This document shows positions 45,463-62,808 of a stretch of 64,000 bases of DNA, one piece after another. The translations under genes were made by a program, and so were the position numbers. The stretch comes from Novosphingobium sp. CF614. GTDB taxonomy: Bacteria; Pseudomonadota; Alphaproteobacteria; Sphingomonadales; Sphingomonadaceae. Below the pieces are notes generated by a model that made no database searches, was not told where the DNA came from, and saw only the letters and a list, made by a program, of their open reading frames with translations. The stretch lies in the NCBI RefSeq assembly GCF_900113255.1, contig NZ_FOOR01000003.1, positions 124,001 through 188,000 of the forward strand. The letters run 5' to 3'. How positions within the stretch are numbered: the first letter of the stretch is position 1; every line of letters starts with the position of its first letter.

Positions 45463-45704
45463 ACGCGGCGATGCCAGGAATAATCGAGAACCGGACTTTC
45501 GGCGAGAATGCCGCCGAGACCCCGGCGCATCATTGATCTCGCAACCATGAACCCCACCGTGCGGCCACGCGCATCGAGCGCGCCTTTGACGATTTCGACG
45601 CGTTCGCCGTTATCCTCGCCGTCAATACCGAGATAGGTGCCTTCGCCGGCGCAGGGAATGCCGTCCGGGGCGGCTGAACAATGCCTCTTCGCCCGGCCGG
45701 ACAT
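45444..45704 (-). CDS. Possible small gene or gene remnant (86 codons)
   Basis: An open frame with coding-like, GC-rich third positions, in otherwise empty DNA between phaC and the molybdenum hydroxylase gene. It overlaps the phaC end by 19 bases. No ribosome site, signal or known motif was recognised. It may be the end of an old gene. The rest of 45463-45722 shows nothing else. Confidence 0.25.
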   Translation of the reverse strand: MSGRAKRHCSAAPDGIPCAGEGTYLGIDGEDNGERVEIVKGALDARGRTVGFMVARSMMRRGLGGILAESPVLDYSWHRRVHRSST

Positions 45705-45722
45705 GCGCTCGATATGGACCTG

Positions 45723-47921
45723 TCAGGTCGAAGCCTCGTCAAGTCGCATGGGCAACGAGCGTATCCGCCTGCCGGTCGCCGCGTAGATCGCGTTCGCGAG
45801 CGCCGGAATGACGGGGGGCAGTGCCGGCTCGCCCAGCCCGGTCGGCGGGAACGGCGATGTCACGAACTTCACCGCCACCTCCGGCGGCGCCTCGTTGATG
45901 CGCAGGAGCGGGAAACCATCGAAGTTCTCCTGCACGATGGCGCCGTCGACCTGGTCCACCTTCTGCCCGATCATGGCCTGGGAAAGACCGTCGATGACCG
46001 ATCCCTGCACCTGGTGCTCGGCATTCAGCGGGTTGATGACCTGGCTTCCGATATCGCCCACCACCCAGATCTTCTCGATCCCGATTTCGCCGGTCCCCGA
46101 TACGGTGGCATCCACGACTTCGGCGAAATAGCCCGCATGGCTGAAATAGAAGCCGAACCCCCTGCCCTTGCCGGTACGGCCCTTGGAGCGGCCGCCGTCC
46201 CAGCCGGCGAAGGCGCAAGCTTCTGCGATCACCTTGCGGGCGCGGCCGGTGTTGAACTGGGGCGCGCGGTCCACCGCCGGCAGCATCCGGTCCTCGCCCA
46301 GCGTGCGCAGGACGAACGTCGGCAAGTCCACCTCGGCGGCCTCCGCGGCTTCGTCCAGAAAGGACTGGAAGACGAAGGCCATGGCGTTGGAGGTCGGCGC
46401 GCGCAACCAGCCGGTGGGCAGGTTGGTCGGCAGATAGGTGACGCCGAAATGGACGTTCGGGACGATCTGCGCCGGAAATTCGGTTTCCTCCATCTCTGCG
46501 GCGCGGACCGGCTCGCCATCGGCGCCGAAGCTCACGAAATGGTCCGACAAGGCGACGAGGCGGCCATCCTTGTCGAGGCCGGCCGTCAAGTCGTGCCATC
46601 CCGCCGGCCGGTAGTAATCGTGGCGGATGTCGTCCGCGCGCGTGTAGATCATCTTGACCGGCTTGCCCGGCACCGCCCGCGCGATCTGGGCGACCTGCAC
46701 CATGTAGTCGCTCATCAGCCGGCGACCGAAACCGCCGCCGATGCGCGTCATGTGGATCGTGATCGACTCCGGCGGCAGGCCGAGGATGTCGGCGACCTGC
46801 CTGCGCCCGTTCGCCGGCGACTGTGCCGGCGCCCACAGCGTCAGCGCTCCGTCCTGGAACAGGCCCGTGCAGTTCTGCGGTTCGAGCGTGGCATGCGCCA
46901 GGAACGGATAGTCGTACTTCGCGGACAGCGTCCTGGCGGCGCCGGACAGGGCTGCCGCGACGTCTCCCTTCCTCAGGATGTCGCCTTGCGGCGGACCGCC
47001 CTGGGCCGCAAGGGCCTGCGCGGCATAGCCCTGGGTGGAGAACCTGGTCTGCGCCGCGGTGTCCCAGTCGATCTTCAGCAGCTTGCGGGCCTGCTGCGCT
47101 GTCCACCAACTGTCGGCGACGACGGCGAGTGCATCGGACTTGCCCTTGGGCACGAGGCCGCTGTTGATCGGCACGACCGCGAGGACGCCCTTCACCGCCC
47201 GTGCCGCGTCGCCGTCGAACGATGCGATGGTGCCCTGGAAGACGGGGCAGGCCTCGATCGCAGCATGGACCATCCCGGGCAGCGCGGTATCGATGCCGAA
47301 CAACGGCTTTCCTTGCAGAATGGCCGGAGTGTCGACGCCGCGTCGGGGCGTGCCGATGATCCTGAAGGTACTGTCGGGCTTCAGCGGCACCGAATCGAGC
47401 GGCGGCGGCGGGACCGCCGACGCGGCGGCGGCCAGCGACGCATAAGTGGCGGAGCGGCCGCTGGGCGCGTGGCGAACCATACCACCGCCCGTCGTGATCG
47501 CATCGGCCGCGACGCCCCATTGCGCCGACGCGGCGGCGACCAGCATCTGCCGCGCGGTAGCTCCGGCCTGGCGCATCGGCAGCCAGTTGACCGGTGTCGC
47601 GCGACTGCCGCCCGCACTCTGCGGCCCGTAGAGCTTGTCGTTGGCCAAAGTCTGCTCGATGCGGACCTGTTCCCAATCGACATCGAGTTCCTCGGCGATG
47701 AGCATCGGCAGCATGGTCTTGACGCCCTGTCCGATCTCGGGGTTCTTCGCGCCGATGGTCACGGTATTGTCCGGATTGATCCGCACGAAAACATTGAGGA
47801 CACCGGCGCCGGCCCCTGCTTCGTCCGCCAGCGTCAGCCGCGCGCGGAAACACAGCGCGGCGCCCGCGACCAACGAGGCCGAAAGAAACGACCGGCGGCT
47901 GACCGCGACCAGGGCGGTCAT
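45723..47921 (-). CDS. iorB: Molybdenum hydroxylase large subunit, isoquinoline 1-oxidoreductase type
   Basis: 732 residues, xanthine dehydrogenase family molybdopterin-binding subunit in the membrane/periplasm-directed IorB branch. A twin-arginine signal (RRSFLSASLVAGAAL) exports it folded. Cofactor-binding motifs include GGGFGRR (about 385), GWLRAPTSNAMAFV (about 495) and the active-site Glu region GLGEPALPP near the C-terminus. Relatives oxidise N-heterocycles or aldehydes. With the 2Fe-2S subunit and cytochrome c encoded upstream it forms one operon. Next to two amine dehydrogenase systems, aldehyde oxidation is the likely job; this is inferred. Confidence 0.88.
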   Translation of the reverse strand: MTALVAVSRRSFLSASLVAGAALCFRARLTLADEAGAGAGVLNVFVRINPDNTVTIGAKNPEIGQGVKTMLPMLIAEELDVDWEQVRIEQTLANDKLYGPQSAGGSRATPVNWLPMRQAGATARQMLVAAASAQWGVAADAITTGGGMVRHAPSGRSATYASLAAAASAVPPPPLDSVPLKPDSTFRIIGTPRRGVDTPAILQGKPLFGIDTALPGMVHAAIEACPVFQGTIASFDGDAARAVKGVLAVVPINSGLVPKGKSDALAVVADSWWTAQQARKLLKIDWDTAAQTRFSTQGYAAQALAAQGGPPQGDILRKGDVAAALSGAARTLSAKYDYPFLAHATLEPQNCTGLFQDGALTLWAPAQSPANGRRQVADILGLPPESITIHMTRIGGGFGRRLMSDYMVQVAQIARAVPGKPVKMIYTRADDIRHDYYRPAGWHDLTAGLDKDGRLVALSDHFVSFGADGEPVRAAEMEETEFPAQIVPNVHFGVTYLPTNLPTGWLRAPTSNAMAFVFQSFLDEAAEAAEVDLPTFVLRTLGEDRMLPAVDRAPQFNTGRARKVIAEACAFAGWDGGRSKGRTGKGRGFGFYFSHAGYFAEVVDATVSGTGEIGIEKIWVVGDIGSQVINPLNAEHQVQGSVIDGLSQAMIGQKVDQVDGAIVQENFDGFPLLRINEAPPEVAVKFVTSPFPPTGLGEPALPPVIPALANAIYAATGRRIRSLPMRLDEAST

Positions 47922-48394
47922 GCCGCGCTTCCCTTGGCCTGGGCATTCGCCGCCTGCCTGATCGCCTTGCGGATGCGCAGGTAAGTCAAGCAGCGGCAGA
48001 TGTTTCCGCTCATCGCCGCGTCGATTTCATCGTCCTTCGGTTGCGGCATCTGGCCCAGCAGCCAGGTCGCCGACATGATCTGCCCGGCCTGGCAATATCC
48101 GCATTGCGGCACGTCCAGATCCGCCCAGGCCTCCACGACATGGCGGCCGGCGGGCAACGAAGCCACATCCTCGATCGTGGTGACGGCCGCTTCCCCGACC
48201 GACCCGACCGGCGTCTGGCACGAGCGCACCGCCTGACCGTCCAGCAGCACGGTGCAGGCGCCGCACAGCCCCGCGCCGCAGCCGAACTTGGTGCCGGGCA
48301 AGTGAAGATCCTCTCGCAGCACCCAGAGCAGCGGCTTTTCGGGATCCACCGAAACGCTGTGCCGGTTCTGGTTCACCTTCAGGTTGATCGCCAT
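47918..48394 (-). CDS. iorA: (2Fe-2S)-binding subunit of the molybdenum hydroxylase
   Basis: 158 residues. The N-terminal plant-type ferredoxin domain has CGAGLCGACTV and a following C (RSCQTP); the C-terminal helical domain has CGYCQAGQI and GNICRCLTY, giving the usual two 2Fe-2S clusters. It passes electrons from the molybdenum centre to the cytochrome c. Its stop overlaps the large-subunit start (ATGA). Confidence 0.93.
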   Translation of the reverse strand: MAINLKVNQNRHSVSVDPEKPLLWVLREDLHLPGTKFGCGAGLCGACTVLLDGQAVRSCQTPVGSVGEAAVTTIEDVASLPAGRHVVEAWADLDVPQCGYCQAGQIMSATWLLGQMPQPKDDEIDAAMSGNICRCLTYLRIRKAIRQAANAQAKGSAA

Positions 48395-48447
48395 GCTTTC
48401 CCTGTACGACCCTTTCTAGAGATTGTCCTCCCGGCAGGAGATACGAC

Positions 48448-48915
48448 TTATGGAATGGCGCCCCGGGCAGCCGCCGCTGCCCGGGCCTTGGCCACTCCGG
48501 CAGCCGTCAACGACCCCGCAGCGCGGGCAGCCTTCACCTCACCGGCAGTGAAGGACGCCACGGCCTTTTTCGGCTTTTCCAGCATGACCGCAAAGTTGAG
48601 CGTATCGGCGACATCCTGGTCGCTCATCGATCCCAAGGCCGGCATCATGCCGCTGATTCGCTTACCGTCGACTTCGATGGGCCCGAACATGCCGAACAGC
48701 ACCACCTTGATGAGGTATGCCCGGCCTTCCTTGCTGGCGGCGATTGCCCCCATCCGGCCCTTGAGACGCGGAAACTGTCCCGGCAGGCCCGCGCCGTTCG
48801 CCTGATGGCACATCGCGCAGCGAGAAGCGAAAGTCTGCGCACCGGCGGCATGGGCAGGCATGGCCCAGCACGCGGCGGCGGCAAGCATGCCGGCCCGAAA
48901 TCGCTTAACGATCAT
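48448..48915 (-). CDS. Class I cytochrome c, electron acceptor of the IorAB-type enzyme
   Basis: 155 residues from the ATG at 48915, chosen because it starts directly with a signal peptide (MIVKRFRAGMLAAAACWAMPAHA). One heme motif CAMCH follows, with GLPGQFPRLKGR and the GMMPALGSMSDQDVADTLNF segment that supplies the Met ligand. The C-terminus is Ala/Lys-rich. It is the first gene of the unit with iorA and iorB and is preceded by the shared amine-regulon promoter. Confidence 0.88.
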   Translation of the reverse strand: MIVKRFRAGMLAAAACWAMPAHAAGAQTFASRCAMCHQANGAGLPGQFPRLKGRMGAIAASKEGRAYLIKVVLFGMFGPIEVDGKRISGMMPALGSMSDQDVADTLNFAVMLEKPKKAVASFTAGEVKAARAAGSLTAAGVAKARAAAAARGAIP

Positions 48916-48949
48916 ATCGGCCAAGGATATCCTCTTGAAATGGGTGCGG

Positions 48950-48983
48950 ACAAATCTGGACAAACATCCAGATTTCGTCAAGC
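48950..48983 (-). promoter_or_regulatory. Amine-regulon promoter and operator A (cytochrome c-iorAB unit)
   Basis: Read on the minus strand: TTGACG (48981-48976), a 17-base spacer and CAGATT (48958-48953). The palindrome TCTGGAC-AAAC-ATCCAGA (48955-48972, plus strand) overlaps the spacer and -10. The flanks extend the palindrome to a 9-bp stem (48952-48975). The cytochrome start codon is 38 bases beyond the -10. Copies B (51001) and C (54579) share the layout. Confidence 0.75.
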
Positions 48984-49097
48984 GTCAATCGCCCGCTTCC
49001 GCACGGTGATGCCGACGGGACTGGCCGATAGGAGCGGACCGAACGCGAATGGGCCAATAGGGGTGGCCCCGACGCGGATTGACGCCTAAATAGGCGC

Positions 49098-49760
49098 ATG
49101 ACCGATACCGATCTCGCCCCGGCGCGCCCGGGCATCTATTCGCGCGGCACCGAAACGGTCGACACCATTCTGAAGGCCGCGCTCGACGTGCTGATAGGCG
49201 AAGGGGCCGAGGCGTTCACCATCCGCCGCGTCGCCGCCGCGTGCGGCCTGCGCGTGGGGAACGTCAGCTATCATTTCCCGAAGAAGGAGATGCTCGTCCA
49301 GGTGCTGCTGGACGAGATCATGGAGAAGTACGACGCCAAGCTTGAAGTCAACGTCCGCCAGCCCGAGCTTTCGGACGAGGACCGGCTTCGGCTGGTCATC
49401 ATCATCTGCCTCGACGACATCTGCACCAAGCGCACCACCCGCCTGTTCACCGAGCTGTGGGCGCTTGCGAACCACAACGACTTCATCGCCGAGCGTGTCC
49501 GCAGCTTCTATGCCAAGGTTCACTGCGTGATCGGCGAATATGTGCAGCGCATCAATCCCGCGCTCAGCGCCGACGAAGTCCAGACGCTTTCGCTGTTCAT
49601 CAGCGCCTCGATGGAAGGCACCACGCCCTTTCTCGGCTTTCAGAAGCCATGGAACGCGAAGATGCCGGCGATCACCGCCATTTCGGCGGCCTGGTTCATC
49701 CATCTTGTCAAATCGATGAAGCCCGGCGAGATTGCGGAACTGACACAAGCATTGAACTAA
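49098..49760 (+). CDS. TetR family transcriptional regulator
   Basis: 220 residues. The N-terminal DNA-binding domain reads AFTIRRVAAACGLRVGNVSYHFPKK (split over the HTH), followed by an all-helical ligand-binding and dimer domain. It is divergent from the cytochrome c-iorAB unit, whose promoter holds a palindromic operator, and upstream of the MFS and amine dehydrogenase genes, whose promoters hold similar operators. It is the most natural regulator of this regulon, probably released by an amine or aldehyde; that is inferred from position. Confidence 0.88.
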   Translation: MTDTDLAPARPGIYSRGTETVDTILKAALDVLIGEGAEAFTIRRVAAACGLRVGNVSYHFPKKEMLVQVLLDEIMEKYDAKLEVNVRQPELSDEDRLRLVIIICLDDICTKRTTRLFTELWALANHNDFIAERVRSFYAKVHCVIGEYVQRINPALSADEVQTLSLFISASMEGTTPFLGFQKPWNAKMPAITAISAAWFIHLVKSMKPGEIAELTQALN

Positions 49761-49832
49761 CCGAGTCGGGAAGGATGCCTTGATGGCGATGGGGCGCCCC
49801 GGGGGGGTGCCGCCTCCGTCAAGGGGAGTCCC

Positions 49833-51026
49833 GTGCGCCAGTTTGCCAACGAACGTCTCATGCTTCCCGCGGTCGCCCTCGCCAGTCTGGGCTGCCTGCA
49901 GCCGGGGATCGATCCGGTATTCCTGACGCTGCTGTCCTCTGCGCACGGCCTCGCGCCCGAATTGCACGGCTGGGTCGTGAGCGCCACGCAGACGGGAATG
50001 GCGGCCGGCGCCGTCGTCGTCTGGCGCTGGGGGACCCGCCTGCCGGAATTCGGCTTCGTGCTGGCGGCCCTCGTCGCGTCCGTCGCGGCGCTGGCGACGA
50101 CGCAGACCGGCTACCTGCCCGCGCTGCTGGCCCTGCGCGGCCTCTATGGAACGGCGATGGGCCTGCTCTATACCCATGCCATGAGCACCGCCGCCACCTG
50201 CCGCCCGCATGGGGCCTATGGCGCCGTGTTCCTGCTGCAACTCGTCCTTTCCACGGTCATCGCCCTGGTCCTGCCGGCGATCGCCGACTTTGCCGGCCCC
50301 AAGGCCGCGCTGGCTGCCTTGGCGCTGGCCCCGCTTTCCGCACTCGCCCTGGCCGCGTGGTCCGCGCGATCGGCACACAGGCGCGTGGCGCACATGCCGC
50401 AGGCACCGGCGACCGAGCAGGGCGACGCCGGGCCCAGGGCATGGGCAACGGCCGGGGCGACGCTGCTCTTCATCTGCGCGACGATGATGGTGTGGACATT
50501 TTCCGGCGCGCTTGCGGTCGGGGCCGGTATCCCCGAGGACACGATCGGCACCGCCGTGGCGCTGGGATCGCTGGCGGGCGCGGCTACCGCACTGCTGGTG
50601 ATGCGCGAACAGCCCCTGGTGCCGCCGCCGCTCACGGGATTGCTGGCCGGACTTTCGCTGCTCGGCCCGATCGTGGCGACGCAAGGCGGCGCCGCGCCGT
50701 TCATTGTCGCGATCGTGCTGCTGAACATCGGATCGACCGCCATCATCGTCCGCAGTTCGGGCCTGGCCAGCGCCGCCAGTCGCGGCAGCCTGTTCCGCCG
50801 CTTCGTCGCGTGCACCCATCCCCTGGGCATGATCCTCGGGCCGCTGGCCGGCTCGGTCGCGACAACCACTTTTGGGCACGCAGGCCTTCTGCTCGCCGCC
50901 ATCGCGACGATCGCGGCGGCCTGTCTGCTGCTGGCTGCCGGACAGGCCCGGTCGCTGCCATTCCGCCGGCGCCCGAAGCGTCAAGAATCGCTTGACGAAT
51001 TCTTGACGTATGTCCAGACTTCGTAA
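49833..51026 (+). CDS. MFS transporter
   Basis: 397 residues from a GTG with a good ribosome site (AAGGGGAG). About 12 transmembrane helices; the usual GRR motif between helices 2 and 3 is weak. It lies between the TetR gene and mauB, on the same strand. The tail overlaps the mauB promoter: its last codons (ESLDEFLTYVQTS) are part of operator B. Likely transport of an amine, or export of a product; the substrate is unknown. Confidence 0.8.
   Translation: MRQFANERLMLPAVALASLGCLQPGIDPVFLTLLSSAHGLAPELHGWVVSATQTGMAAGAVVVWRWGTRLPEFGFVLAALVASVAALATTQTGYLPALLALRGLYGTAMGLLYTHAMSTAATCRPHGAYGAVFLLQLVLSTVIALVLPAIADFAGPKAALAALALAPLSALALAAWSARSAHRRVAHMPQAPATEQGDAGPRAWATAGATLLFICATMMVWTFSGALAVGAGIPEDTIGTAVALGSLAGAATALLVMREQPLVPPPLTGLLAGLSLLGPIVATQGGAAPFIVAIVLLNIGSTAIIVRSSGLASAASRGSLFRRFVACTHPLGMILGPLAGSVATTTFGHAGLLLAAIATIAAACLLLAAGQARSLPFRRRPKRQESLDEFLTYVQTS
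50990..51020 (+). promoter_or_regulatory. Amine-regulon promoter and operator B (mauBEDA)
   Basis: TTGACG (50992-50997), 17-base spacer, CAGACT (51015-51020). The palindrome TCTTGAC-GTAT-GTCCAGA (51001-51018) has one mismatch between half-sites. It lies inside the 3' end of the MFS gene, 28 bases before the mauB ATG. Confidence 0.75.
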
Positions 51027-51047
51027 AGGCAGCACAGGGGGACCGGG

Positions 51048-52238
51048 ATGAAGTCTTACTCGGGTTTTCGTTTCGGCGTCGTGGCTGCGCTCGCCCTGAG
51101 CGGCCCCGCCCTGTACGGCATCGCCGCGTTCGCCCCGGCGGCGAATGCCAAGGATCCGAACGGGCTTGAGCCCGAGGAAAGCGACACGGCGACGATCGAG
51201 GCACCGCAGGCGGGCTGGTTTTACGTGCGCGGCGGCTGGGAGGTCGACGGCACGGCCATCTACGACGGCAAGTCCGGCAAGATGAAGGGCATCGTGGCTT
51301 CCAGCCAGCTGTCCGACATGGCGATCGATCCGGCCGGCAAGTATTACTATATATCGGAAACGATCTGGTCGAAGGGCAACCGGGGCACGCGTCAGGACAT
51401 GGTATCGGTCTACGACAGCCAGACCCTCAAGCTGGTGACCGAAATCCCCATTCCCAGCCGCATCCTGGTGGACGAGCGAAAGCAGAATTTCGTCCTGAGC
51501 GCGGACGGCAGATGGGGCTTCATCTACAGCTTCAGCCCGGCCCAGGCGGTCAATGTCGTCGACCTTGCCAAGCGCAAGTTCGTCAAGACCGTGGAACTTC
51601 CCGGCTGCGCCGCGCTGATTCCCAATCCGGGCGTGGGCTTCTCCGCGCTCTGCTCGGACGGAACCATGGCGACCGTCACCGACCCTGCGGGCAAGGCTGC
51701 CATTACCCATGGCCCGGCCTTTTTCGCGGCGTCGGACGATCCAATCTTCGAGAACTTCGCCTATGACAAGGCGAAGAACACGGCGATCTTCGTCAGCTAT
51801 ACCGGCCTTGTCTACACGGCCAAGATGGGCGCCTCGCCGGAGGTTTCCGCGCCCTTCTCGCTGCAGGAAGCGGCCGGCTACGCCCCGGCGGTCACGAAGC
51901 CGCTGAGTGTCGCCTGGTATCCCGGCTCGCGCCAACCGGCAGCGTACAATGCCGCCTCGGGTGAACTCTTCGTGCTGATGCACATGGGCGAATACTGGTC
52001 CCACAAGGCATTCGGCGACGAGATCTGGGTGCTCGACGTCGCCGCCAGGAAGGTCGTGCGGCGCCTGGCGCTCAAGGAACCGGTCGGCCATATCGAAGTG
52101 ACCCAGCAGGCCGAGCCCCTGATTTTCGTGAACGACGAAAAGAGCGAGGGCATGATACTCGATGGCCGGACGGGCGAGGAACTCCACCGCATAGAGACGG
52201 CCGGTTCCGGCGTGATTAGCGTGGCTTCCGGTTCGTGA
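51048..52238 (+). CDS. mauB: TTQ amine dehydrogenase, large (beta-propeller) subunit
   Basis: 396 residues with a signal peptide (cut near AANAKD). The rest is the seven-bladed propeller of MauB/AauB with a GWFYVRGGWEVDG start, DVVNVVDLAKRK-like blade repeats and a late GDEIWVLDVAARKVV. The large subunit holds the TTQ-bearing small subunit in the periplasm. The gene order B-E-D-A then a small cytochrome, without mauF, C, J or G, matches the aromatic amine dehydrogenase (aau) cluster of Alcaligenes faecalis more than the methylamine cluster, so aralkylamines are likely substrates. Confidence 0.88.
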   Translation: MKSYSGFRFGVVAALALSGPALYGIAAFAPAANAKDPNGLEPEESDTATIEAPQAGWFYVRGGWEVDGTAIYDGKSGKMKGIVASSQLSDMAIDPAGKYYYISETIWSKGNRGTRQDMVSVYDSQTLKLVTEIPIPSRILVDERKQNFVLSADGRWGFIYSFSPAQAVNVVDLAKRKFVKTVELPGCAALIPNPGVGFSALCSDGTMATVTDPAGKAAITHGPAFFAASDDPIFENFAYDKAKNTAIFVSYTGLVYTAKMGASPEVSAPFSLQEAAGYAPAVTKPLSVAWYPGSRQPAAYNAASGELFVLMHMGEYWSHKAFGDEIWVLDVAARKVVRRLALKEPVGHIEVTQQAEPLIFVNDEKSEGMILDGRTGEELHRIETAGSGVISVASGS

Positions 52239-52798
52239 TGACGGCGCCGGAGGTCGCGCTGGCCATCCTCACGCGGGCCGCCGCGATCGGGTGCGGCCTG
52301 ATATTCCTCACGGCCGGGATCGAGAAGGCGCGGCATCGGCACGTCCTGCCCGGCGTCATCGCCAACTACCGGATACTGCCGCCCGCGCTGGTCGGCCCCG
52401 CGTCGATCGGGCTGCCGCCGCTGGAGTGCGTCGTCGGCATCATGCTGCTGTCGGGATGGACGCCTGCCCCGGTGATCGCCGGGGCGGCACTGCTGATGGT
52501 CTTCGCGGCGGCCATGGCGGTGAACCTGCTGCGCGGGCGCCGTGCCATCACCTGCGGTTGCGGCCGGCTCGACTTGCGGCAGCACCTGCGCTGGCCATCG
52601 GTCGCGCGCAATGCGCTGCTGGCCGCGCTGCTGCTCGCCTCGCCGGCCTTTGCCGACCCGCTCGATCCCATCCCGCTCGATCCCATGTCGATCGCCAGCG
52701 CGGCGTTCGGCGGCATCGCCATCTGGATCGCCAATCTGCTTTTCGAGGCCATCGGCACGCTCGCCGCGACCGCCGTCTCGATGCACCGGAGTCATTGA
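52238..52798 (+). CDS. mauE: Amine dehydrogenase maturation protein MauE
   Basis: 186 residues with four to five transmembrane helices, beginning with a DoxX-like segment (LTAGIEKARHRHVLPGVIANYRILP, split) and containing the Cys pair CGCG at about residue 105. MauE and MauD are needed for disulfide formation and stability of the small subunit, which has six disulfides in known enzymes. The ATG at 52238 overlaps the mauB stop by one base; a GTG one codon upstream is also possible. Confidence 0.9.
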   Translation: MTAPEVALAILTRAAAIGCGLIFLTAGIEKARHRHVLPGVIANYRILPPALVGPASIGLPPLECVVGIMLLSGWTPAPVIAGAALLMVFAAAMAVNLLRGRRAITCGCGRLDLRQHLRWPSVARNALLAALLLASPAFADPLDPIPLDPMSIASAAFGGIAIWIANLLFEAIGTLAATAVSMHRSH

Positions 52799-52801
52799 CC
52801 G

Positions 52802-53404
52802 ATGCTCGTCTCCCTCATCATCGCCCAGATCGTCAGCTGGATCGTCATACTGGCGTTCGGCGTGGCCCTGGTCGCGCTGGCCCGGCAAGTCGGCATCCTC
52901 CACATGCGCGTCGCCCCCGCCGGGGCCCTCGCGACCTCCGGCGGGGCCTCGGTCGGCGACGATACCGCCGGCCTCATGGGCCAGACGCTTTCCGGCCAGA
53001 CCCTGGCGCTGGGCGGCCCCAGGCCGGGTATCCCGCTCAGGCTGCTGATGTTCGTTTCCGCCCAGTGCCCACTCTGCAAGGGGCTGATACCGGTCGCGAA
53101 ATCTTTCGCGAAGCATGAACGGGTCGAACTGATCTTCGTGGGCGACGACGAACCGGCGGCGCAGCACGGATTGATCGCGCAGCACGGGCTGACGGCGTAC
53201 CCGTTCGTCAACGACGCGGCGGTCGGGCGGACGCTGGGCGTATCAAAGCTGCCCTTCGCGGTGCTGCTCGACGAACAGGGGCAGATCCTGTCGAAAGGGC
53301 TGGTGAACAGCCGCGAACATCTGGAAAGCCTGATCGTAGCCCATGAAATGGGTGTGCGGACAGTGCAGGACTATATTTCGGGGCTTCGGCATGCGGCCGC
53401 ATGA
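52802..53404 (+). CDS. mauD: Amine dehydrogenase accessory thiol-disulfide protein MauD
   Basis: 200 residues: one N-terminal membrane helix, then a periplasmic thioredoxin-like domain with the active-site CPLC (SAQCPLCKGLIP, about residue 85) and the cis-Pro loop (VSKLPFAVLLD). It works with MauE in disulfide formation of the small subunit. It starts three bases after mauE and is followed by mauA after 24 bases. Confidence 0.92.
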   Translation: MLVSLIIAQIVSWIVILAFGVALVALARQVGILHMRVAPAGALATSGGASVGDDTAGLMGQTLSGQTLALGGPRPGIPLRLLMFVSAQCPLCKGLIPVAKSFAKHERVELIFVGDDEPAAQHGLIAQHGLTAYPFVNDAAVGRTLGVSKLPFAVLLDEQGQILSKGLVNSREHLESLIVAHEMGVRTVQDYISGLRHAAA

Positions 53405-53428
53405 ACCGGTCAATCTTGAGGACGACCG

Positions 53429-53974
53429 ATGAAGAAATTCGACGCCGACGCCGTATGCGAGAAGCTGCTTCGCAAGCAGGCGGGCCGCACTTCGCGCCGC
53501 AGCCTGATCTCGCGCCTGGGCATCGCCCTGGTCGCCGCGCCGGTCTTTCCGCTGCTGCCGGTGAGCCGGGCCGAAGCCGCCAAGCCCGATCGCTCGCCGG
53601 AGGCCAAGACCGCGTTCGCCCGCAGTGCGCAGACTGAAGATGATACCGAGTGCACCTACTGGCGATATTGCGCGATCGACGGCGCGCTGTGCTCGTGCTG
53701 CGGCGGCGGCATCCACACCTGCCCCGCCGGTTCCGAGCCTTCGCCCGTGTCGTGGGTGGGCACCTGCATCAATCCCGACAACGGCAAGGCCTATCTGATC
53801 GCCTACCGCGATTGCTGCGGCAAGCCGATGTGCAACCAGTGCCTGTGCGACAATACCGACCGGGAAACCCAGCTCTACACGCCGCAGCTCAACAACGACA
53901 TCATCTGGTGCTTCGGCACGCAGAGCATGCAGTACCACTGTTCGACGGCAGTGTTGGTCGGCGGGGCGGAATAG
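53429..53974 (+). CDS. mauA: TTQ amine dehydrogenase, small (catalytic) subunit precursor
   Basis: 181 residues. A twin-arginine leader (TSRRSLISRLG) precedes the mature domain. Cys-rich core as in MauA/AauA (CAIDGALCSCCGG, YRDCCGKPMCNQCLC). Trp109 (VSWVGTC) and Trp160 (DIIWCFG) correspond to the two Trp that form tryptophan tryptophylquinone, and Asp128 to the catalytic base of aromatic amine dehydrogenase. The C-terminus (IIWCFGTQSMQYHCST) differs from the common NWCMAN, so it is a divergent member. No mauG, the diheme enzyme that completes TTQ, lies in the window; the aau cluster also lacks one. Confidence 0.92.
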   Translation: MKKFDADAVCEKLLRKQAGRTSRRSLISRLGIALVAAPVFPLLPVSRAEAAKPDRSPEAKTAFARSAQTEDDTECTYWRYCAIDGALCSCCGGGIHTCPAGSEPSPVSWVGTCINPDNGKAYLIAYRDCCGKPMCNQCLCDNTDRETQLYTPQLNNDIIWCFGTQSMQYHCSTAVLVGGAE

Positions 53975-53983
53975 GCGCCAGCC

Positions 53984-54508
53984 ATGTCCGCCCGGAACCG
54001 GCAGTACTTGTTGCTGGCCGCGGGATGCCTGTTGGGGATCGCCAGCTATGCTTCCGCAGGCGATCCGGCGCCGGCGCCGCGGTTCGGCATGCTCGATCCG
54101 GCGCTCGCGCGCTCCGACTATATCGAGAACTGCGGAGGCTGCCACGGCGTGACCGGAAGCACTGCCCCTGCCGCCGTACCCGAGTTGCGCGGCCGGGTCG
54201 GCTACTTCCTGTGCACGCCCGAGACCCGTGCCTATCTGCTGCGGCTGCCCAACGTCGCGCACAGCCGCATCGGCGACGACCAGCGGCTTGCCGAAGTCAT
54301 GAACTATGTCGTCTTCGTGCTCGGCGGGGCCAGCGCGCCGCCTGGCCGCCTCCCCTTCGACGGCGCCGAGGTAGCCCGGGAACGCCGCCACGCGCTGAGC
54401 GCCGCCAACCTTACCGACGAGCGCGCGCGCAACGTCCGGATCGTCATGCGGCAGTGCAACGGGCCGGCGTCCCTGCGGTCGATGTACGATCCGCTCCACT
54501 CAAGATAG
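53984..54508 (+). CDS. Small cytochrome c of the amine dehydrogenase cluster
   Basis: 174 residues with a signal peptide (cut near ASYASAG) and one heme motif CGGCH in YIENCGGCHGV. The C-terminal half is Arg-rich and hydrophilic. It lies 9 bases after mauA, the position of the small monoheme cytochrome in the aau cluster, so it probably carries electrons from the dehydrogenase to the respiratory chain. It could instead help in cofactor maturation, since mauG is absent; a single heme motif argues against a MauG-like role. Confidence 0.85.
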   Translation: MSARNRQYLLLAAGCLLGIASYASAGDPAPAPRFGMLDPALARSDYIENCGGCHGVTGSTAPAAVPELRGRVGYFLCTPETRAYLLRLPNVAHSRIGDDQRLAEVMNYVVFVLGGASAPPGRLPFDGAEVARERRHALSAANLTDERARNVRIVMRQCNGPASLRSMYDPLHSR

Positions 54509-54569
54509 GCGGCAGTGCCGCGCGGTTTGCGGGCATCCCGGCCTTCTTTCGCAAGTGCAATAAAGTGGC

Positions 54570-54598
54570 TTGACCAAATCTTGACGATCGTCCTATCT
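54570..54598 (+). promoter_or_regulatory. Amine-regulon promoter and operator C (qhp operon)
   Basis: TTGACC (54570-54575), 17-base spacer, CTATCT (54593-54598). Palindrome-like TCTTGAC-GATC-GTCCTAT (54579-54596) has the same spacing as copies A and B but a degenerate right half. It lies 57 bases upstream of the qhpA ATG. Confidence 0.7.
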
Positions 54599-54655
54599 TC
54601 GCGTTGACCGGCGGGGATTCCCCGGCTTTCTCCAACTCTGGGGGACACAGCGAAC

Positions 54656-56437
54656 ATGAATTTCGCGCTACGGCCGCGCCTTGGCAACCACCGCGCCATG
54701 ATCCTGCCCTTGCTCGCCGGCATGGTGCTGTCGGCCTCGGTCGTCACGGCGCAGGTCGCCGATCAAGCCGCCGTCGACGAAGCTGGCAAGGATCCCTCGG
54801 ACTGGGCGGAGAAGGAAACCGGCATACCGGTGACGGACAGGCTGACGATCGAGAAGTGCGGATCGTGCCACGCCCCTGACGACAAGGGCAATCTAACGCG
54901 GATTTCCTGGATCCGCGCCACACCCGAAGGCTGGTCGCAGACGATCAAGCGCATGGTCAAGCTCAACGGCCTGGCGATCACGCCGGAGGAAGCGCGCGCG
55001 GTGGTGAAATACCTGGGCACCTGGCACGGGCTTGCTCCGGACGAGGCCAAGCCGGTCATGTACTTCGCCGAACGGCGCGTCCAGGACGAAACGATCATCC
55101 CGAACGAGAACCTGCGTACGAGCTGCGCGGGATGCCACGCCTTCGCTCAACCCATGTCCTCGCGCCGCAGCCACCGCGAATGGGCGCTGCTCCAGAACAT
55201 GCACAAGGCGCTCTATTCGCAGGCGGAGTTTCAACTGAATCGCCCGGCGGACGAGCAGCCTGCGGATAACAAGCCGCCCAAGAAGCCCCTTACCCAGGGC
55301 CAGATCGCCCTGGCATGGCTGAGCAAGGAGGCCGATCTGGGCAGCGCGGCCTGGGCCCAATGGCGTCCGCGCATCCGCACGCCCCGGCTTGGCGGCAAGT
55401 GGATCATTTCCGCGAGCCTGCGCGGGCACGGCCGTTTCGTGGGCACGATGACGATCACCCCTTCGGGCGACGACTTCACCACCACCACGACCTTGCGCTC
55501 GCTCGATACTGGGGCAACCTCCACGCGCACCGGCAAGGGGCTCGTCTATGCCGGCTATTCCTGGCGCGGCACATCGGGCGGGGGGCAGTCCGCCAAGCCG
55601 GACGACATCACCGGGGCGCTGCGTGAGACCATGTGGTTCTCGCCGGACCAGACATTTGCCGAAGGCCGCTGGTACTGGGGCGAGTACCACGAATTCGGCC
55701 TGGACGTGAAAATGACGCGCGCCACCGGCGGCCCGGTGATCGCCGCGGTCTCGCCCAGCGCGGTCAAGATCGGGGCCAAAGGCACCGAAGTGCACATCTA
55801 CGGCGACGCCCTGCCCTCCGCGCTGTCCGCCGACGATCTCGATTTCGGCAGCGGCGTGACGGTGCGCAAGGTCGTGACCCTCTCGCCTTCCGAAGCGGTC
55901 GCGACGGTCGATGTATCGGCGGACGCGATCGCCGGCCTGCACGACGTCGCCGTGAACGGCGTGACGCTGACCAAGGCCCTGCCGGTGTACGGCAGCATCG
56001 ACTATCTGAAGGTGGTTCCCGAAACCTCGCTCGCGCATCTGGGCGGCATCAAGTACGGCAAGGGCTACGAGCAGTTCGAGGCCGTGGCCTGGTCGAACGG
56101 TGCGGACGGCAAGCCCAATACCGGCCCCGATACCGGCGATGATTTCCCGGTCATGCCGATCGCCGCCGACTGGACGATGGGAGAATTCCCGACCGTCACT
56201 TACGACGACGACGTCAAGTACGTCGGCACGCTCGGCACGGCCGGTTTCTTCACGCCGAACGTCGAAGGGCCCAATCCGGAGCGCCGGTTCAGCCGCAACA
56301 ACTATGGCGAGGTCTGGGTGGTCGCGACCGCCAGGACTCTCAAGGACAAGCTCGGCAAGCCGCTGAGCGCGCGGGCCTACCTTGTCACCACGGTGCCGAC
56401 GTATCGGCGCTGGGACCAGCCGGAGGTTTCCCAATGA
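54656..56437 (+). CDS. qhpA: Quinohemoprotein amine dehydrogenase, alpha subunit (diheme)
   Basis: 593 residues with a signal peptide (ends near VVTAQ). Two c-type heme motifs, CGSCH at 68-72 and CAGCH near 158, form the N-terminal diheme domain. Three beta-sandwich domains follow (Ig/OB-like, about 230-590), as in the Paracoccus and Pseudomonas enzymes. It accepts electrons from the CTQ cofactor in the gamma subunit and passes them on in the periplasm. It is the first gene of the qhp operon, and its stop overlaps qhpD (ATGA). Confidence 0.94.
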   Translation: MNFALRPRLGNHRAMILPLLAGMVLSASVVTAQVADQAAVDEAGKDPSDWAEKETGIPVTDRLTIEKCGSCHAPDDKGNLTRISWIRATPEGWSQTIKRMVKLNGLAITPEEARAVVKYLGTWHGLAPDEAKPVMYFAERRVQDETIIPNENLRTSCAGCHAFAQPMSSRRSHREWALLQNMHKALYSQAEFQLNRPADEQPADNKPPKKPLTQGQIALAWLSKEADLGSAAWAQWRPRIRTPRLGGKWIISASLRGHGRFVGTMTITPSGDDFTTTTTLRSLDTGATSTRTGKGLVYAGYSWRGTSGGGQSAKPDDITGALRETMWFSPDQTFAEGRWYWGEYHEFGLDVKMTRATGGPVIAAVSPSAVKIGAKGTEVHIYGDALPSALSADDLDFGSGVTVRKVVTLSPSEAVATVDVSADAIAGLHDVAVNGVTLTKALPVYGSIDYLKVVPETSLAHLGGIKYGKGYEQFEAVAWSNGADGKPNTGPDTGDDFPVMPIAADWTMGEFPTVTYDDDVKYVGTLGTAGFFTPNVEGPNPERRFSRNNYGEVWVVATARTLKDKLGKPLSARAYLVTTVPTYRRWDQPEVSQ

Positions 56438-57900
56438 CCAGCATGACCGCACTCACTTCGGGTCGCTACCGCCGTGGGGAACTGCATGAGTTCGAAGCCG
56501 CCGGGCAGCCGTTCATGTACCTGGTTTCCGCCGGGGCCATCTTCGCCCTCGACGAAGGTGCCAATGCGGTCCTGCGCAAGCTCGGGCAAGTGGACATGAG
56601 CCACGCCGAGCTTGCGCAGGCTCTGCGGGATGCGGGGTACGACCGGGCGGACGCGGAGGAACTGATCCGTGAGCTGCTCTTCGTGCAGGGCATCGTCTCC
56701 GACGCGGTGCGCCCCGCCGTCGCGCCGTCGCCGGCAACCCCGCCCGCCGACTTCCCACTCCAGGCACTGGTGCTCAACGTCACCAACCAGTGCAACCTCG
56801 CCTGCACCTACTGCTACGAATTCGGGGCCGACAAGATCGCTACGCCCCAGGGCAAGCCGAAATTCATGACCCCGGAGACCGCCAAGGCCTCGGTCGATTT
56901 CCTGCTGGAGAAGTCGGCCGGCCACCAGGCGGTGCACATCACCTTCTTCGGCGGCGAGACGCTGATGAACTTCAAGCTGCTGCGCGAAGTCGTGCTCTAC
57001 GCGCGCGGGCGTGCCGAAGCGCAGGGGCGGACCATCGGCTTCAGCCTCACCACCAACGCCACGCTGCTTACGGACGAGATCATCGCGTTCCTCTCCGAAC
57101 ACGAGATCGGCGTCACCGTCAGCATGGACGGTCCGCCGGACTTGCAGGACAAGCACCGCGTGTACAAGTCCGGCAAGGGTTCCTACGCCGTCATCGAACC
57201 GCGCCTTCGCAAGCTGATCGCGCAGCATCGCACGCGGGCGATCACCGCGCGCGTGACGCTGACCGACGGCGTCACCGACGTGATCCGCATTTACCGGCAT
57301 CTGAAGGACGACCTGGGCTTTCACGAGGTCGGCTTCGCGCCCGTCACCAATTCGGGCGACCGGGACTACATGATCGGCGACGGCGCCATGGACGAAGTGC
57401 TGGCCCAGTTTCACGAGCTTGCCGCCGAATGGCTGGAACATGCCCTGCGCGGCGAGATGCACGGCTTCTCCAATGTCAGCGAGACGATCGGCGAACTGAT
57501 CCAGGGCGTCAACAAGTCGCACCCCTGCGGCGCCGGCCTGGGGCTGCTGGGGGTAAGCCCATCGGGCGACCTTTCGCCGTGCCATCGCTTCACCGACGCC
57601 GACACCCACACGCTTGGCCATATCGCCACGGGGATCGACGCGGACAAGCGCGAGGATTTCCTCTCGCGCGGCCACGTGAGCGCCAAGTACGAATGCCAGA
57701 CGTGCTGGGCACGCCCGCTCTGCGCCGGGGGATGCCACCACGAGGCTTTCGTGCGCTACGGCGACACCGGCCATGCCAACCTTCATTATTGCGACTGGAT
57801 CCGGGAATGGACCGACGCCTGCTTGCGCATCTACGGCGCGGTCAGCGTGCAAAATCCCGATTTCCTTGAGCGCTTCGCAGCACGAAAGGGCCTGTCATGA
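56434..57900 (+). CDS. qhpD: Radical SAM maturase of quinohemoprotein amine dehydrogenase
   Basis: 488 residues. The radical SAM motif CNLACTYC (about residues 118-125) is followed by SPASM-type auxiliary cluster cysteines (CGAGLGLLG, SPCHRF, CQTCWARPLCAGGC). The N-terminal 95 residues form a small PqqD-like recognition domain. QhpD makes the three Cys-to-Asp/Glu thioether crosslinks in the gamma subunit before export. The qhpC start overlaps its stop. Confidence 0.95.
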   Translation: MTSMTALTSGRYRRGELHEFEAAGQPFMYLVSAGAIFALDEGANAVLRKLGQVDMSHAELAQALRDAGYDRADAEELIRELLFVQGIVSDAVRPAVAPSPATPPADFPLQALVLNVTNQCNLACTYCYEFGADKIATPQGKPKFMTPETAKASVDFLLEKSAGHQAVHITFFGGETLMNFKLLREVVLYARGRAEAQGRTIGFSLTTNATLLTDEIIAFLSEHEIGVTVSMDGPPDLQDKHRVYKSGKGSYAVIEPRLRKLIAQHRTRAITARVTLTDGVTDVIRIYRHLKDDLGFHEVGFAPVTNSGDRDYMIGDGAMDEVLAQFHELAAEWLEHALRGEMHGFSNVSETIGELIQGVNKSHPCGAGLGLLGVSPSGDLSPCHRFTDADTHTLGHIATGIDADKREDFLSRGHVSAKYECQTCWARPLCAGGCHHEAFVRYGDTGHANLHYCDWIREWTDACLRIYGAVSVQNPDFLERFAARKGLS

Positions 57901-58229
57901 AGCATCTCCGCCCCGTCAACCGGAAGGCAGCGCGGATCGACGCCACTGCGTCGCTGCTGGAAGAGGACGTCGTCGCGCTGCAGCAGCAGCCCCCCAAGCC
58001 GCATATCCCGATGGGCTGCACCTTGTCCTTTTCTCCCGGCTGGGAAGTCGATGCGGGCGGCGGCACGGCGGGCCTGTGCCAGCCGGTCGAGCGCGACATC
58101 TACGATTGCTACGTCACCTGCTTCTGGCCGGTGCAAGTGCCCGACCACGTCAACTATTCGCCCGACTGGGCCAGCAACTGCGCGGTCGCGACCAAGGACT
58201 GGCGCAACCTGGACCTTGTTTTCCCCTGA
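57897..58229 (+). CDS. qhpC: Quinohemoprotein amine dehydrogenase, gamma subunit precursor (CTQ peptide)
   Basis: 110 residues. A leader of about 34 residues starts MKHLRPVNRKAARID and is removed after crosslinking. All crosslink residues of the Paracoccus enzyme are kept, offset by 34: Cys41-Glu50, Cys61-Asp67 and Cys75-Asp83 for the thioethers, and Cys71 with Trp77 for cysteine tryptophylquinone. One extra Cys lies at SNCAVATKDW. The protein has no classical signal peptide, in line with a dedicated exporter (qhpF). Confidence 0.96.
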   Translation: MKHLRPVNRKAARIDATASLLEEDVVALQQQPPKPHIPMGCTLSFSPGWEVDAGGGTAGLCQPVERDIYDCYVTCFWPVQVPDHVNYSPDWASNCAVATKDWRNLDLVFP

Positions 58230-58280
58230 TCGACGGGCCGCACCGGACCCGACGCATTTCACGAGGAAGAGCCACGTAGC

Positions 58281-59366
58281 ATGAAGACGCTTCGCCTTGC
58301 ACTCGCGGCCCTGTTGACCGCATCCGCCGCGGCTTCGTCCGATGCTGCCACGATCGTGCTGGGCGGCTATCCCGACCAGATCCAGTTCGTCGGCGACGCC
58401 GACGGCAAGGTGGTGCAGAAAGTCACGCTGGCGTCCGGCCTTCCGACCAACCTCCAGCTTTCGGCGGACGGCAAGCGCATCTACATCACCACGCTGAGCA
58501 CCAGCGGGATCGAGGTGATGGACGCGGCCACGCGCAAGATCGTCACCAGCCTCAGCCTCAACACGCCGACGACCCGCTACCGGTTCACCGGCGGCGTGCC
58601 CGATCCCACCGGCCGTTATTTCTACATCGTCGGCACGCGGATGGACAAGGAGATCGACCGCTACCGCATCAGCAAGCCCCGCTTCATGACGGTCGACCTC
58701 AAGACCAGGCAGATCGTCCGTGAGGTCGATGTCGACCCGCAGGACGAAACGCCCGCCTACCGGACGCGCCTCGCCATTTCCCCGGACGGCAAGTCTCTCT
58801 ATCTGTTCCAGAAGAAAGTGCTGATCGTCGACACCAGCAATTTCAAGGTGGTCGACCGCATCGACCTCGAAAAACCGGATTTTCCGGGCATGCAGGAAGT
58901 CGGCATCGGCGGCAGCCTGGAGACTCTGCGGGAACCGGGTGTCTACGTCTCGCTGTTCAATGCCGAAGATCCCTACATCCACAACAAGGTGTTCGGCATC
59001 GCCCGGTTCGACCTGTCTTCGCGGGCGTTCACCTTCAAGCCGATCGGCCCCGCGCCCGCGCAGATGGCGGGACTGGAAGTGACGCCCGACGGCAAGGACG
59101 GCTACACCGTCGCGGTCACCGGCGAGTACGGCAACAAGCGCTGCGAGTTCTGGCATTTCGATCTCGCGACCAACGCGGCGCTGGAAAAGGCCGAGTTTCC
59201 CTGCCGTTCCCGCTTCTACTTCGGCATGTCCCGCGACGGCCGAAAACTGTATATCTACGGCGCGGGCTACGACATCGCCGTCTATGACGCGAAGACACTG
59301 AAGATCGAGCAAGATTGGGAACTTACGAACGACATCACGATGGCGGGGATACTGACCCTGCCTTGA
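58281..59366 (+). CDS. qhpB: Quinohemoprotein amine dehydrogenase, beta subunit
   Basis: 361 residues with a signal peptide (cut near SDAAT). The rest is a seven-bladed propeller with repeated (LS)xDGKxxYI segments (LSADGKRIYIT, ISPDGKSLYLF, MSRDGRKLYIY). The propeller covers the gamma subunit and shapes the active-site cavity. It starts 51 bases after qhpC, the largest gap in the operon, with a usable ribosome site (GAGGAAGAG). Confidence 0.94.
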   Translation: MKTLRLALAALLTASAAASSDAATIVLGGYPDQIQFVGDADGKVVQKVTLASGLPTNLQLSADGKRIYITTLSTSGIEVMDAATRKIVTSLSLNTPTTRYRFTGGVPDPTGRYFYIVGTRMDKEIDRYRISKPRFMTVDLKTRQIVREVDVDPQDETPAYRTRLAISPDGKSLYLFQKKVLIVDTSNFKVVDRIDLEKPDFPGMQEVGIGGSLETLREPGVYVSLFNAEDPYIHNKVFGIARFDLSSRAFTFKPIGPAPAQMAGLEVTPDGKDGYTVAVTGEYGNKRCEFWHFDLATNAALEKAEFPCRSRFYFGMSRDGRKLYIYGAGYDIAVYDAKTLKIEQDWELTNDITMAGILTLP

Positions 59367-60364
59367 GCGAGCCCTGGACTGTCACGATCACTGGCGGCGG
59401 CGTGGCGGCGGCATGCTGCAAGCATCTGCTGCGCGAACAAGGCGCGGCGGTCCATGGGACGGCCGACGCCCGGTTGCCCGTGCCGGCGATCATGCTGAGC
59501 GATCCCGCACGGTCGCTGCTGCGCGAATGCCTTGCCAAGCCAGCCCTGTTCGAAAACAATGCCCGGATCACCCGGCGCTTCGTCGCCTGGGGCGGGCATG
59601 AACCGGTCTGCCTGCCGCACGGCGCCGTCATGCTGGGCGCCGGCGACCTGGACTTCGCGTCGCCCGATGCCGGCCCGGCGCCGCGCGCGGCGGACTTCAC
59701 CATCCGGACCTCGCGCCCCGCGCCGGACGAACCCTTGCTGCGCTTCGGGGAACGGATGGGAGAGACAGTCCCCGTGCGCCTGCTCATGCCGGAAGATGCC
59801 GATGCCTGCTGGATCGAATCGGTCGAAGACGGCTGGCTGTTCATGATCCCGTCTGCCGGACAGGGCGGCTGGCTGCTGGCCGTGGGCGCGCCCTGTGCGG
59901 TGCTTCTCGAACAGAGCCGCCATCTCGCCGCCCGTGTCCGAATCGAAGCGCGGCAGGCTGCGCGGTTCGATACCGCCCCGCGCATGCTCGCCGCCATGGC
60001 GGGCGGCGGCTGGCTTGCCTGCGGCTCGAGCGCGATGGCCTTCGATCCGATCTGCGGCGACGGCACCGCGCTCGCCGTGCGGCAGGCCATACTGGCCTGC
60101 GCCGTCGCCCTGGCATGCCGGGAGGGCGAGGACGCCGGCGCGCTGCTCGGCCACTACGAGGCGATGATGACGGCGGCGATGCGCCGGCACTTGCGGCACT
60201 GCTGCGAATTCTATGGTTCCGGCGGAACCGGTCCATGGTGGTGCTTGCAGCAACAGGCGCTGGCGGACGGGTTCGCGGCCTGCACTGCCCGGCTGGAGCG
60301 GGAGCCGCCACCGCGTTTCGCGCTGGAAGGCTTTCGTCTCGTGCGGCGGGAACTGGCGGCATGA
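59363..60364 (+). CDS. qhpG: FAD-dependent monooxygenase QhpG, CTQ biogenesis
   Basis: 333 residues from a TTG that overlaps the qhpB stop (TTGA), giving the start SEPWTVTITGGGVAAACC with an FAD-binding glycine motif; ATGs upstream lie within qhpB. Later flavin-monooxygenase features include GDGTALAVRQAILAC (about residue 230). QhpG dihydroxylates the Trp of the crosslinked gamma subunit on the way to CTQ. Two near-terminal cysteines (HCCEF) are present. Recognition rests on operon position plus the flavoprotein motifs. Confidence 0.88.
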   Translation: MSEPWTVTITGGGVAAACCKHLLREQGAAVHGTADARLPVPAIMLSDPARSLLRECLAKPALFENNARITRRFVAWGGHEPVCLPHGAVMLGAGDLDFASPDAGPAPRAADFTIRTSRPAPDEPLLRFGERMGETVPVRLLMPEDADACWIESVEDGWLFMIPSAGQGGWLLAVGAPCAVLLEQSRHLAARVRIEARQAARFDTAPRMLAAMAGGGWLACGSSAMAFDPICGDGTALAVRQAILACAVALACREGEDAGALLGHYEAMMTAAMRRHLRHCCEFYGSGGTGPWWCLQQQALADGFAACTARLEREPPPRFALEGFRLVRRELAA

Positions 60365-62094: not shown

Positions 62095-62095
62095 C

Positions 62096-62803
62096 ATGAC
62101 CGGCACTGCGACGGGACGCGGCGTTCGCATCGCCGTCATCGACAGCGGCGTCAATCCGGACCACGCTCATATCGAGGCTTCGCGCCTTGCCGCCGGCGCC
62201 GGAATACGCGGCGACGGCAGCGTCGAGCTGGGGGCGGAGGCCACGCTCGACCGGCTGGGCCACGGGACGGCGGTAATGGCGGCAATCCAGGAAAAAGCCC
62301 CCGGCGCCACCTGCATTCCCATCCGCGTGTTCCACGATAGCCTGAGGACCACCGGCCTGGGGCTCATCGCGGCGCTCGACTGGGCGATCGCGCAGCGCGT
62401 GGACGTCATCAACCTCAGCCTGGGCTCGACCACCCCGGCCCATGCGCCGGCCTTTGGCGCGGCGATAGAACGGGCAAACCGCGCGGCCACGATCGTCGTG
62501 GCGCCCCGTGAGGTTGACGGAGCGCCCTGCTATCCCGGCGCGATCGACGGCGTCATCGGCGTGGGCATCGACTGGGACTGCCCGCGTGCGGCATTTCGCG
62601 TCGCCGAAGACCAAAGGCATTTCCTGGCCTCCGGCTATCCCCGCCCGATACCCGGCGTGCCGCCGCGCCGAAATCTCTACGGCATCAGCTTTGCCACGGC
62701 CCAGCTATCCGGCTTTGCCGCCTGCGCGCTCGAAAACCTGCCCTCGGCAGGCCCCGCCAGAATCACCGCGCTGCGAACCGCGCTATACGCGAACGCCCGA
62801 TGA
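62096..62803 (+). CDS. qhpE: Subtilisin-like protease QhpE
   Basis: 235 residues, S8 serine protease with the catalytic Asp16 (AVIDSGV), His in RLGHGTAV (about residue 60) and Ser in YGISFATA (about 200). It is small and has no propeptide or signal, consistent with cytoplasmic removal of the QhpC leader after crosslinking. It starts one base after qhpF and ends the operon. No qhpR-type AraC regulator is present here. Confidence 0.93.
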   Translation: MTGTATGRGVRIAVIDSGVNPDHAHIEASRLAAGAGIRGDGSVELGAEATLDRLGHGTAVMAAIQEKAPGATCIPIRVFHDSLRTTGLGLIAALDWAIAQRVDVINLSLGSTTPAHAPAFGAAIERANRAATIVVAPREVDGAPCYPGAIDGVIGVGIDWDCPRAAFRVAEDQRHFLASGYPRPIPGVPPRRNLYGISFATAQLSGFAACALENLPSAGPARITALRTALYANAR

Positions 62804-62808
62804 AGACG

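Follow-up and report, generated by a model that had tools for sequence, protein, structure and literature searches.

How is TTQ made in an enzyme whose gene cluster carries no mauG? The question is posed by a locus of Novosphingobium sp. CF614 that lies in a stretch of 64,000 nucleotides (the window; contig NZ_FOOR01000003.1, positions 124,001 to 188,000). Five genes run in the same direction on the plus strand between positions 51048 and 54508 of the window. They encode a MauB-like large subunit (51048-52238; PF06433, 149.7 bits; TIGR02658, 156.5 bits, below the MADH cut-off of 454.45), two maturation proteins, namely the membrane protein MauE (52235-52798; PF07291, 85.5 bits) and the thioredoxin-like MauD (52802-53404; TIGR02661, 150.8 bits, below the cut-off of 188.6), the TTQ-bearing small subunit MauA (53429-53974; 181 aa; PF02975, 178.3 bits, cut-off 25) and a one-heme cytochrome, here called Cyt-A (53984-54508; 174 aa), with one CxxCH motif and a signal-like N-terminus. 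The segment singled out by the original prediction, 53429-54508, holds two of these genes, mauA and the cytochrome.

MauA has the features of the PF02975 family: two TTQ tryptophans, a catalytic aspartate and the cysteine-rich make-up of the small subunit. In an alignment of 15 sequences from MADH and aau-type systems, W109, W160, D84, D128 and most cysteines are invariant, which bears out the original prediction that Trp109, Trp160 and Asp128 are kept. The protein matches the solved light chains of both MADH (E 8e-51) and AADH (E 5e-41), structures of the latter including 2agl, and its TIGR02659 score of 190.4 bits lies just below the MADH cut-off of 196.85. It had also been proposed that the cluster has no di-heme mauG and a one-heme cytochrome instead; this holds, since a di-heme HMM found no match at 44000-64000 and no PF03150 protein lies on the window's contig (C23 in the genome-wide search). 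With no di-heme gene in that interval and with MauB and MauA below the MADH cut-offs, the locus does not have the make-up of a MADH (mau-type) cluster, and going by ORF naming no window ORF is a mauF or an amicyanin gene. Its order, mauBEDA and then a one-heme cytochrome without mauG, is that of AADH (aau-type) clusters, and loci annotated aauA/aauB (L063) have the same layout. The aau cluster of Alcaligenes faecalis reportedly lacked mauG as well, and a one-heme cytochrome is said to have been noted there in the 2001 paper; we take that cluster to resemble the window in its mauB-E-D-A order, its TTQ residues and its downstream one-heme cytochrome (orf-2). By sequence, the window cluster is an aromatic-amine-dehydrogenase-like (aau-type) TTQ system, for which mature TTQ and aromatic-amine activity are predicted.

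One way out would be a MauG encoded elsewhere in the genome. A whole-genome search with PF03150 returned two CCP_MauG proteins, neither of them near the mau genes. The first, on contig C33 (L001), is of the CcpA type, is closest to cytochrome c551 peroxidases (E 2e-117) and has Met at the place of MauG Tyr294; the second, on contig C50 (L002), is MbnH-like (294.5 bits, below the cut-off of 362.85) and has no Tyr at that place. The best PDB matches of the two are ordinary peroxidases and the di-heme enzyme 6e1c. MauG and ordinary peroxidases reportedly differ in the ligands of their six-coordinate heme, Tyr-His in the former and Met-His in the latter, although this is not the sole determinant (PMC6405878). 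By this mark neither protein qualifies as a MauG, the Tyr294 that serves as second ligand of the six-coordinate heme being absent from both. On contig C50 of this genome (G000) the gene of the MbnH-like di-heme protein adjoins a 188-aa ORF without Pfam or NCBIfam match (1093-2079 and 2087-2653, both on the minus strand). These two perhaps make up an MbnH/MbnP-like pair.

The position of Tyr294 was used for classification because the TIGR03791 cut-off (443.85 bits) is useless as a divider: MauG of P. denitrificans scores 94.6 bits, Paracoccus MauG proteins range from 94.6 to 115.1 bits, and Methylobacterium MauG alone passes. Annotation by TIGR03791 will therefore under-call MauG. Across 397 genomes of the family, mauA (PF02975) was found in 39, at 51 places. 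Some TIGR03791 match, never above the cut-off, is present in 21 of these 39; the remaining 18, including one of the same genus (G361), have no match to either TIGR03791 or PF03150, and some CCP_MauG-free route must therefore exist. Tyr occupies the Tyr294 place in four of the 39 (G056, G175, G099 and G020), whose proteins could be MauG-like, and in a CCP_MauG protein of G438, outside the family. We also examined 80 named loci, the closest of at least 593 relatives. Among the 48 genomes behind them, which overlap the family genomes in part, 12 have no TIGR03791 match; PF03150 in turn finds nothing in 11 of these and, in the remaining one, a partial match at the edge of the cut-off. The Tyr294 classification covers the matches in family genomes, with the weaker TIGR03791 matches behind the named loci standing outside it. 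Judged by these searches, a mau cluster without mauG is the rule in the family. The idea of a MauG elsewhere in the genome is therefore disfavoured by the residues at the Tyr294 place and by the 18 relatives without a match, and the broader proposal, that an enzyme other than MauG makes TTQ, gains support in general.

Cyt-A is the gene that accompanies mauA. It lies right after mauA on the same strand at all 51 family places, a count that includes L102, which is outside the position filter of the tree set and carries Cyt-A a short way downstream of mauA, on its strand. An alignment of 35 diverse Cyt-A members (A2), searched over the 397 family genomes, matched all 39 with mauA, always at 117.7 bits or more, and none of the 358 without; part of its rows come from the genomes searched, so that the positives are partly training data. 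The sole remaining matches, at 55.8 and 55.2 bits, fall in two family genomes without mauA. A sample of 398 genomes from the phylum gave full mauA in 11, our own included. All 13 full mauA places there, window included, are of the Cyt-A kind, with Cyt-A beside mauA at each of the 12 outside the window, and A2 found Cyt-A in 11/11 genomes with full mauA and in 0/387 others. In the A2 searches of family and phylum, scoring was confined in most genomes to the ten top-ranking candidates of a first look, and the counts include related genomes, which are not independent. Weak PF02975 matches in G698 (24.5 bits) and G727 (22 bits) have no Cyt-A in either genome, and G296 carries an additional Cyt-A close to the end of a contig, where the stretch examined contains no mauA. 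In G698, a genome of 1.2 Mb, the locus L224 contains a short MauA-like frame (127 aa; 50.9 bits to a MauA HMM) that is perhaps a remnant.

The pairing also extends to the named loci, where Cyt-A is present at 77 of 80; this number includes L175, whose Cyt-A match (101.6 bits) has no in-frame CxxCH, perhaps through a draft frameshift. At L155 the locus is cut by a contig end. The other two loci, L172 and L185, have no Cyt-A beside mauA, and a second mauBEDA-CytA cluster, this one complete, is present in both genomes. Besides a full cluster elsewhere, each of two related genomes has an extra mauB-mauA pair from which mauE, mauD and Cyt-A are all absent, a joint absence seen at two sister loci and perhaps arising in one event. 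A full mauBEDA-CytA set in G442 has a mauB-mauA pair immediately in front of it. The di-heme HMM, applied to up to 10 kb on each side of the named loci, found no di-heme gene in any of the 80. The 14-kb stretch around mauA at L117 (G201) contains a remote di-heme relative (44.7 bits), apparently the protein in which Phe occupies the Tyr294 place.

Clusters for MADH provide the counterpart. The mau cluster of Paracoccus methylamine dehydrogenase (L061) has homologous B, E, D and A genes and the same TTQ residues; it differs from the window in having mauF, amicyanin, mauJ, mauG and two NapG/NapH-like genes, and no Cyt-A. We examined 18 of 30 plasmid records with mauA. Each of the nine MADH clusters, on nine plasmid records from Paracoccus, Methylobacterium and Indioceanicola, has mauF and a MauG-type gene, and Cyt-A is absent from all nine; the residue at the Tyr294 place is Tyr in all five of their MauG-type proteins that were checked. 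Conversely, a di-heme gene is missing from all nine aau-type plasmid loci, each of which has Cyt-A. The pNL2 cluster of Novosphingobium aromaticivorans DSM 12444 (L071) contains mauBEDA and Cyt-A. Immediately behind mauA, eight of the nine MADH loci have amicyanin, and the Indioceanicola locus has mauJ. In the loci seen, Cyt-A and a MauG-type gene beside mauA are mutually exclusive.

What kind of protein is Cyt-A? It has the CxxCH of a class I c-type cytochrome, with C15, C18 and H19 invariant among the 35 members of A2; the other five of its eight invariant positions are G17, G23, P31, N72 and R112. No Met, Tyr or extra His is among them, nor is there an invariant acidic or aromatic distal residue like Glu113 of MauG. 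The Pfam family Cytochrom_C is matched by 28 of the 35 members and not by the one in the window, which has no Pfam or NCBIfam match at all; with a single CxxCH and no CCP_MauG domain, it does not belong to the CCP_MauG family. A model of Cyt-A alone, without heme or partner, has a mean pLDDT of 90.6. Foldseek gave no PDB match at E <= 0.001, the best being cytochrome c552 of Thermus thermophilus (1c52, 4.1e-3), whose fold resembles the model (Z 11.0, rmsd 2.7, 112 residues aligned). A Cyt-A profile matches the same cytochrome (2fwl) at E about 3e-24 and skips chain residues 52-72, the region in which the Met ligand of that protein (Met69) presumably lies. Compared with MauG (di-heme, PDB 3l4m), Cyt-A thus differs in its single CxxCH, its lack of a CCP_MauG domain and its cytochrome c552-like fold, and any likeness between the two is confined to the job proposed below.

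The gap in the profile match recurs when Cyt-A is compared with a Met-type relative, which we call Cyt-M. The conserved Arg-to-Asn segment measures 23-24 residues in 142 distinct Cyt-A sequences, as against a median of 41 in Cyt-M, and contains MP or MQ in 1/142 Cyt-A and in 60/63 Cyt-M; these counts leave out L179 and matches without an in-frame CxxCH, and four of 67 Cyt-M were too short. Some Met is present in this segment in 90 of the 142 Cyt-A, mostly right before the Asn in the examples inspected, and there is no conserved Met column. By sequence, then, Cyt-A is missing a loop of about 18 residues before the last conserved helix, the loop that would bring a Met sixth ligand. Because this Met-ligand loop of its relative is missing, the heme of Cyt-A probably has an open sixth site.

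Cyt-M itself is found downstream of Cyt-A on the same strand in 59 of 151 places with Cyt-A. The minus strand of the window encodes, at 48448-48981, a Cyt-M-like one-heme cytochrome with a Met-Pro loop (GMMPALG). It scores 59.8 bits against the first Cyt-A HMM and is possibly a partner of Cyt-A placed here outside the mau operon. In one locus (L179; Ferruginivarius sediminum, NZ_QPMH01000025.1) an ORF from about 10371, directly after mauA, encodes a Met-type cytochrome fused to Cyt-A as a single chain that bears two CxxCH motifs. It is the sole such fusion seen and does not match the di-heme HMM. With Cyt-M at 59 of 151 places and one fusion, a di-heme enzyme split into Cyt-A and Cyt-M is not supported as a general rule.

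We propose, with a confidence that stops a little short of an even chance, that Cyt-A does the job of MauG as a non-homologous replacement rather than as a member of the MauG family. MauA would be exported and its disulfides made by MauE and MauD. The heme of Cyt-A, through its open sixth position, would then react with H2O2 or O2 and oxidise the two tryptophans of pre-MauA, carrying out the second hydroxylation, the cross-link and the oxidation to the quinone; Cyt-M, where present, might act as a second, electron-storing heme or as the electron acceptor of the enzyme. Four observations argue for such a maturation role: no locus seen has both Cyt-A and a MauG-type gene beside mauA; where Cyt-A is missing from the extra pairs, mauE and mauD, which are known maturation genes, are missing as well; a heme that is probably open is better suited to reacting with H2O2 or O2 than to simply carrying electrons; and L179 fuses a Met-type cytochrome to Cyt-A. 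Against it, MauG is taken to require a pair of hemes, whereas a downstream Cyt-M is present at just 59 of the 151 places; Cyt-A shows no invariant counterpart of the distal Glu113 of MauG; and four of the 39 family genomes do encode a CCP_MauG protein with Tyr at the Tyr294 place.

A wider version of this proposal, which we consider less probable than its opposite, is that most TTQ enzymes are made without MauG, and that Cyt-A, alone or with a Met-ligated partner as a split di-heme machine, would be a second and perhaps older maturase, MauG being a later replacement in MADH. It draws on the 13 of 13 full mauA places of the Cyt-A kind in the phylum sample and on a midpoint-rooted tree of 160 MauA sequences, in which the MADH branch falls within the diversity that carries Cyt-A. 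All five MADH sequences of this tree are united in one clade (support 1.0), nested in a ten-member group (0.9) whose other members are L179, L172, L185, L195 and L198. Support drops to 0.237 at the node surrounding that group; the MADH branch is long, and the position of the root is conjectural.

The near-constant company of mauA and Cyt-A could also be read differently. Cyt-A may be a dedicated electron acceptor or docking partner that takes the place of amicyanin in MADH, TTQ being made by another factor, and we regard this as somewhat unlikely though a serious contender: amicyanin does come right after mauA in eight of nine MADH loci, the nearest solved relative of Cyt-A is an electron carrier (cytochrome c552), and a dedicated acceptor would also track mauA. 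However, the lack of a Met-ligand loop would be unusual for a carrier, and the Met-type cytochrome, the more natural acceptor, comes and goes (59/151) while Cyt-A stays. The absence of Cyt-A along with mauE and mauD from the extra mauBA pairs points the same way, though a shared acceptor could be lost likewise. It is less probable still, and in our view unlikely, that TTQ arises by self-processing at the expense of O2 or H2O2 once MauE and MauD have driven folding, or that an unlinked enzyme of a family other than CCP_MauG makes it, with Cyt-A serving another role such as stability or export. Such a route would fit the 18 of 39 mauA-bearing family genomes that have no CCP_MauG match, but it leaves the constant pairing of mauA and Cyt-A unexplained.

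Two further readings assign the task to enzymes already present in this genome. We think it very improbable that the CcpA-type protein of C33 or the MbnH-like protein of C50 makes TTQ. Both exist, and MbnH-type enzymes oxidise a tryptophan in a partner protein; on the other side stand the Met, or lack of Tyr, at the Tyr294 place, the PDB matches to peroxidases and 6e1c, the distance from the mau genes, and the 18 relatives, G361 among them, that manage without any such protein. Hardly any credence is left for the suggestion in the original prediction that the qhp maturation proteins next door modify MauA. They are indeed adjacent: qhpD lies at 56434-57900 (plus strand; TIGR03906, 678.2 bits, cut-off 453) and a gene for a divergent QhpG-like flavoprotein at 59315-60364 (plus strand; NF049967, 47.5 bits, cut-off 240). 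QhpG and QhpD likewise give rise to a tryptophan-derived quinone, that of quinohemoprotein amine dehydrogenase, and QhpG is reported to hydroxylate a tryptophan of QhpC twice (PMC7876137). Yet QhpD is present in only five of the 39 family genomes with mauA and missing from 34, and for this reason the idea fails; moreover, as reported in the same paper, QhpG acts on its target QhpC in the cytoplasm and not without QhpD, whereas the TTQ of MADH is made in another compartment, the periplasm (PMC7876137). We judge that qhpD and the qhpG-like gene are not part of the TTQ system; the better candidate is Cyt-A, which the original prediction named just as what the cluster carries in place of mauG.

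As far as we have seen, five points about Cyt-A are new here: it pairs almost perfectly with mauA, it lacks the Met loop, it and mauG exclude each other, it is absent jointly with mauE and mauD, and it occurs fused to a Met-type cytochrome. A search of titles and the starts of abstracts, in a collection whose coverage leaves out most subscription journals, found no publication on TTQ formation without MauG or on a replacement of MauG. Recombinant AADH was reportedly made, in a 2005 paper, in Paracoccus, which is said to have its own MauG. Looking ahead, the gap left by the missing MauG is narrowed to a single gene family open to deletion and assay. For MauG, oxidising two tryptophans at a distance is explained by the bis-Fe(IV) chemistry of its two hemes. 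Were Cyt-A the maturase, a protein of about 150 residues with a single heme would perform this remote oxidation, and TTQ enzymes could be built with a simpler tool; were it an acceptor only, the maturase is to be sought in the genomes without any CCP_MauG protein.

Some minor observations concern the neighbouring genes and MauG itself. The MauG proteins of Methylobacterium and Indioceanicola (L066, L065) have Lys at the place of Trp199, possibly through a slip of the alignment; in P. denitrificans MauG we take Trp199 to be a hopping residue. The QhpG-like protein of the window (349 aa, no Pfam match) is very divergent from the curated QhpG model, and qhpC (PF08992) is also part of the downstream qhp cluster. 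The mau and qhp clusters lie head to tail at 51048-62803, and a frame with two CxxCH motifs, like the qhpA-type gene of the window, also follows Cyt-A in L003 (G057) and L015 (G237), two genomes in which qhpD is close by.
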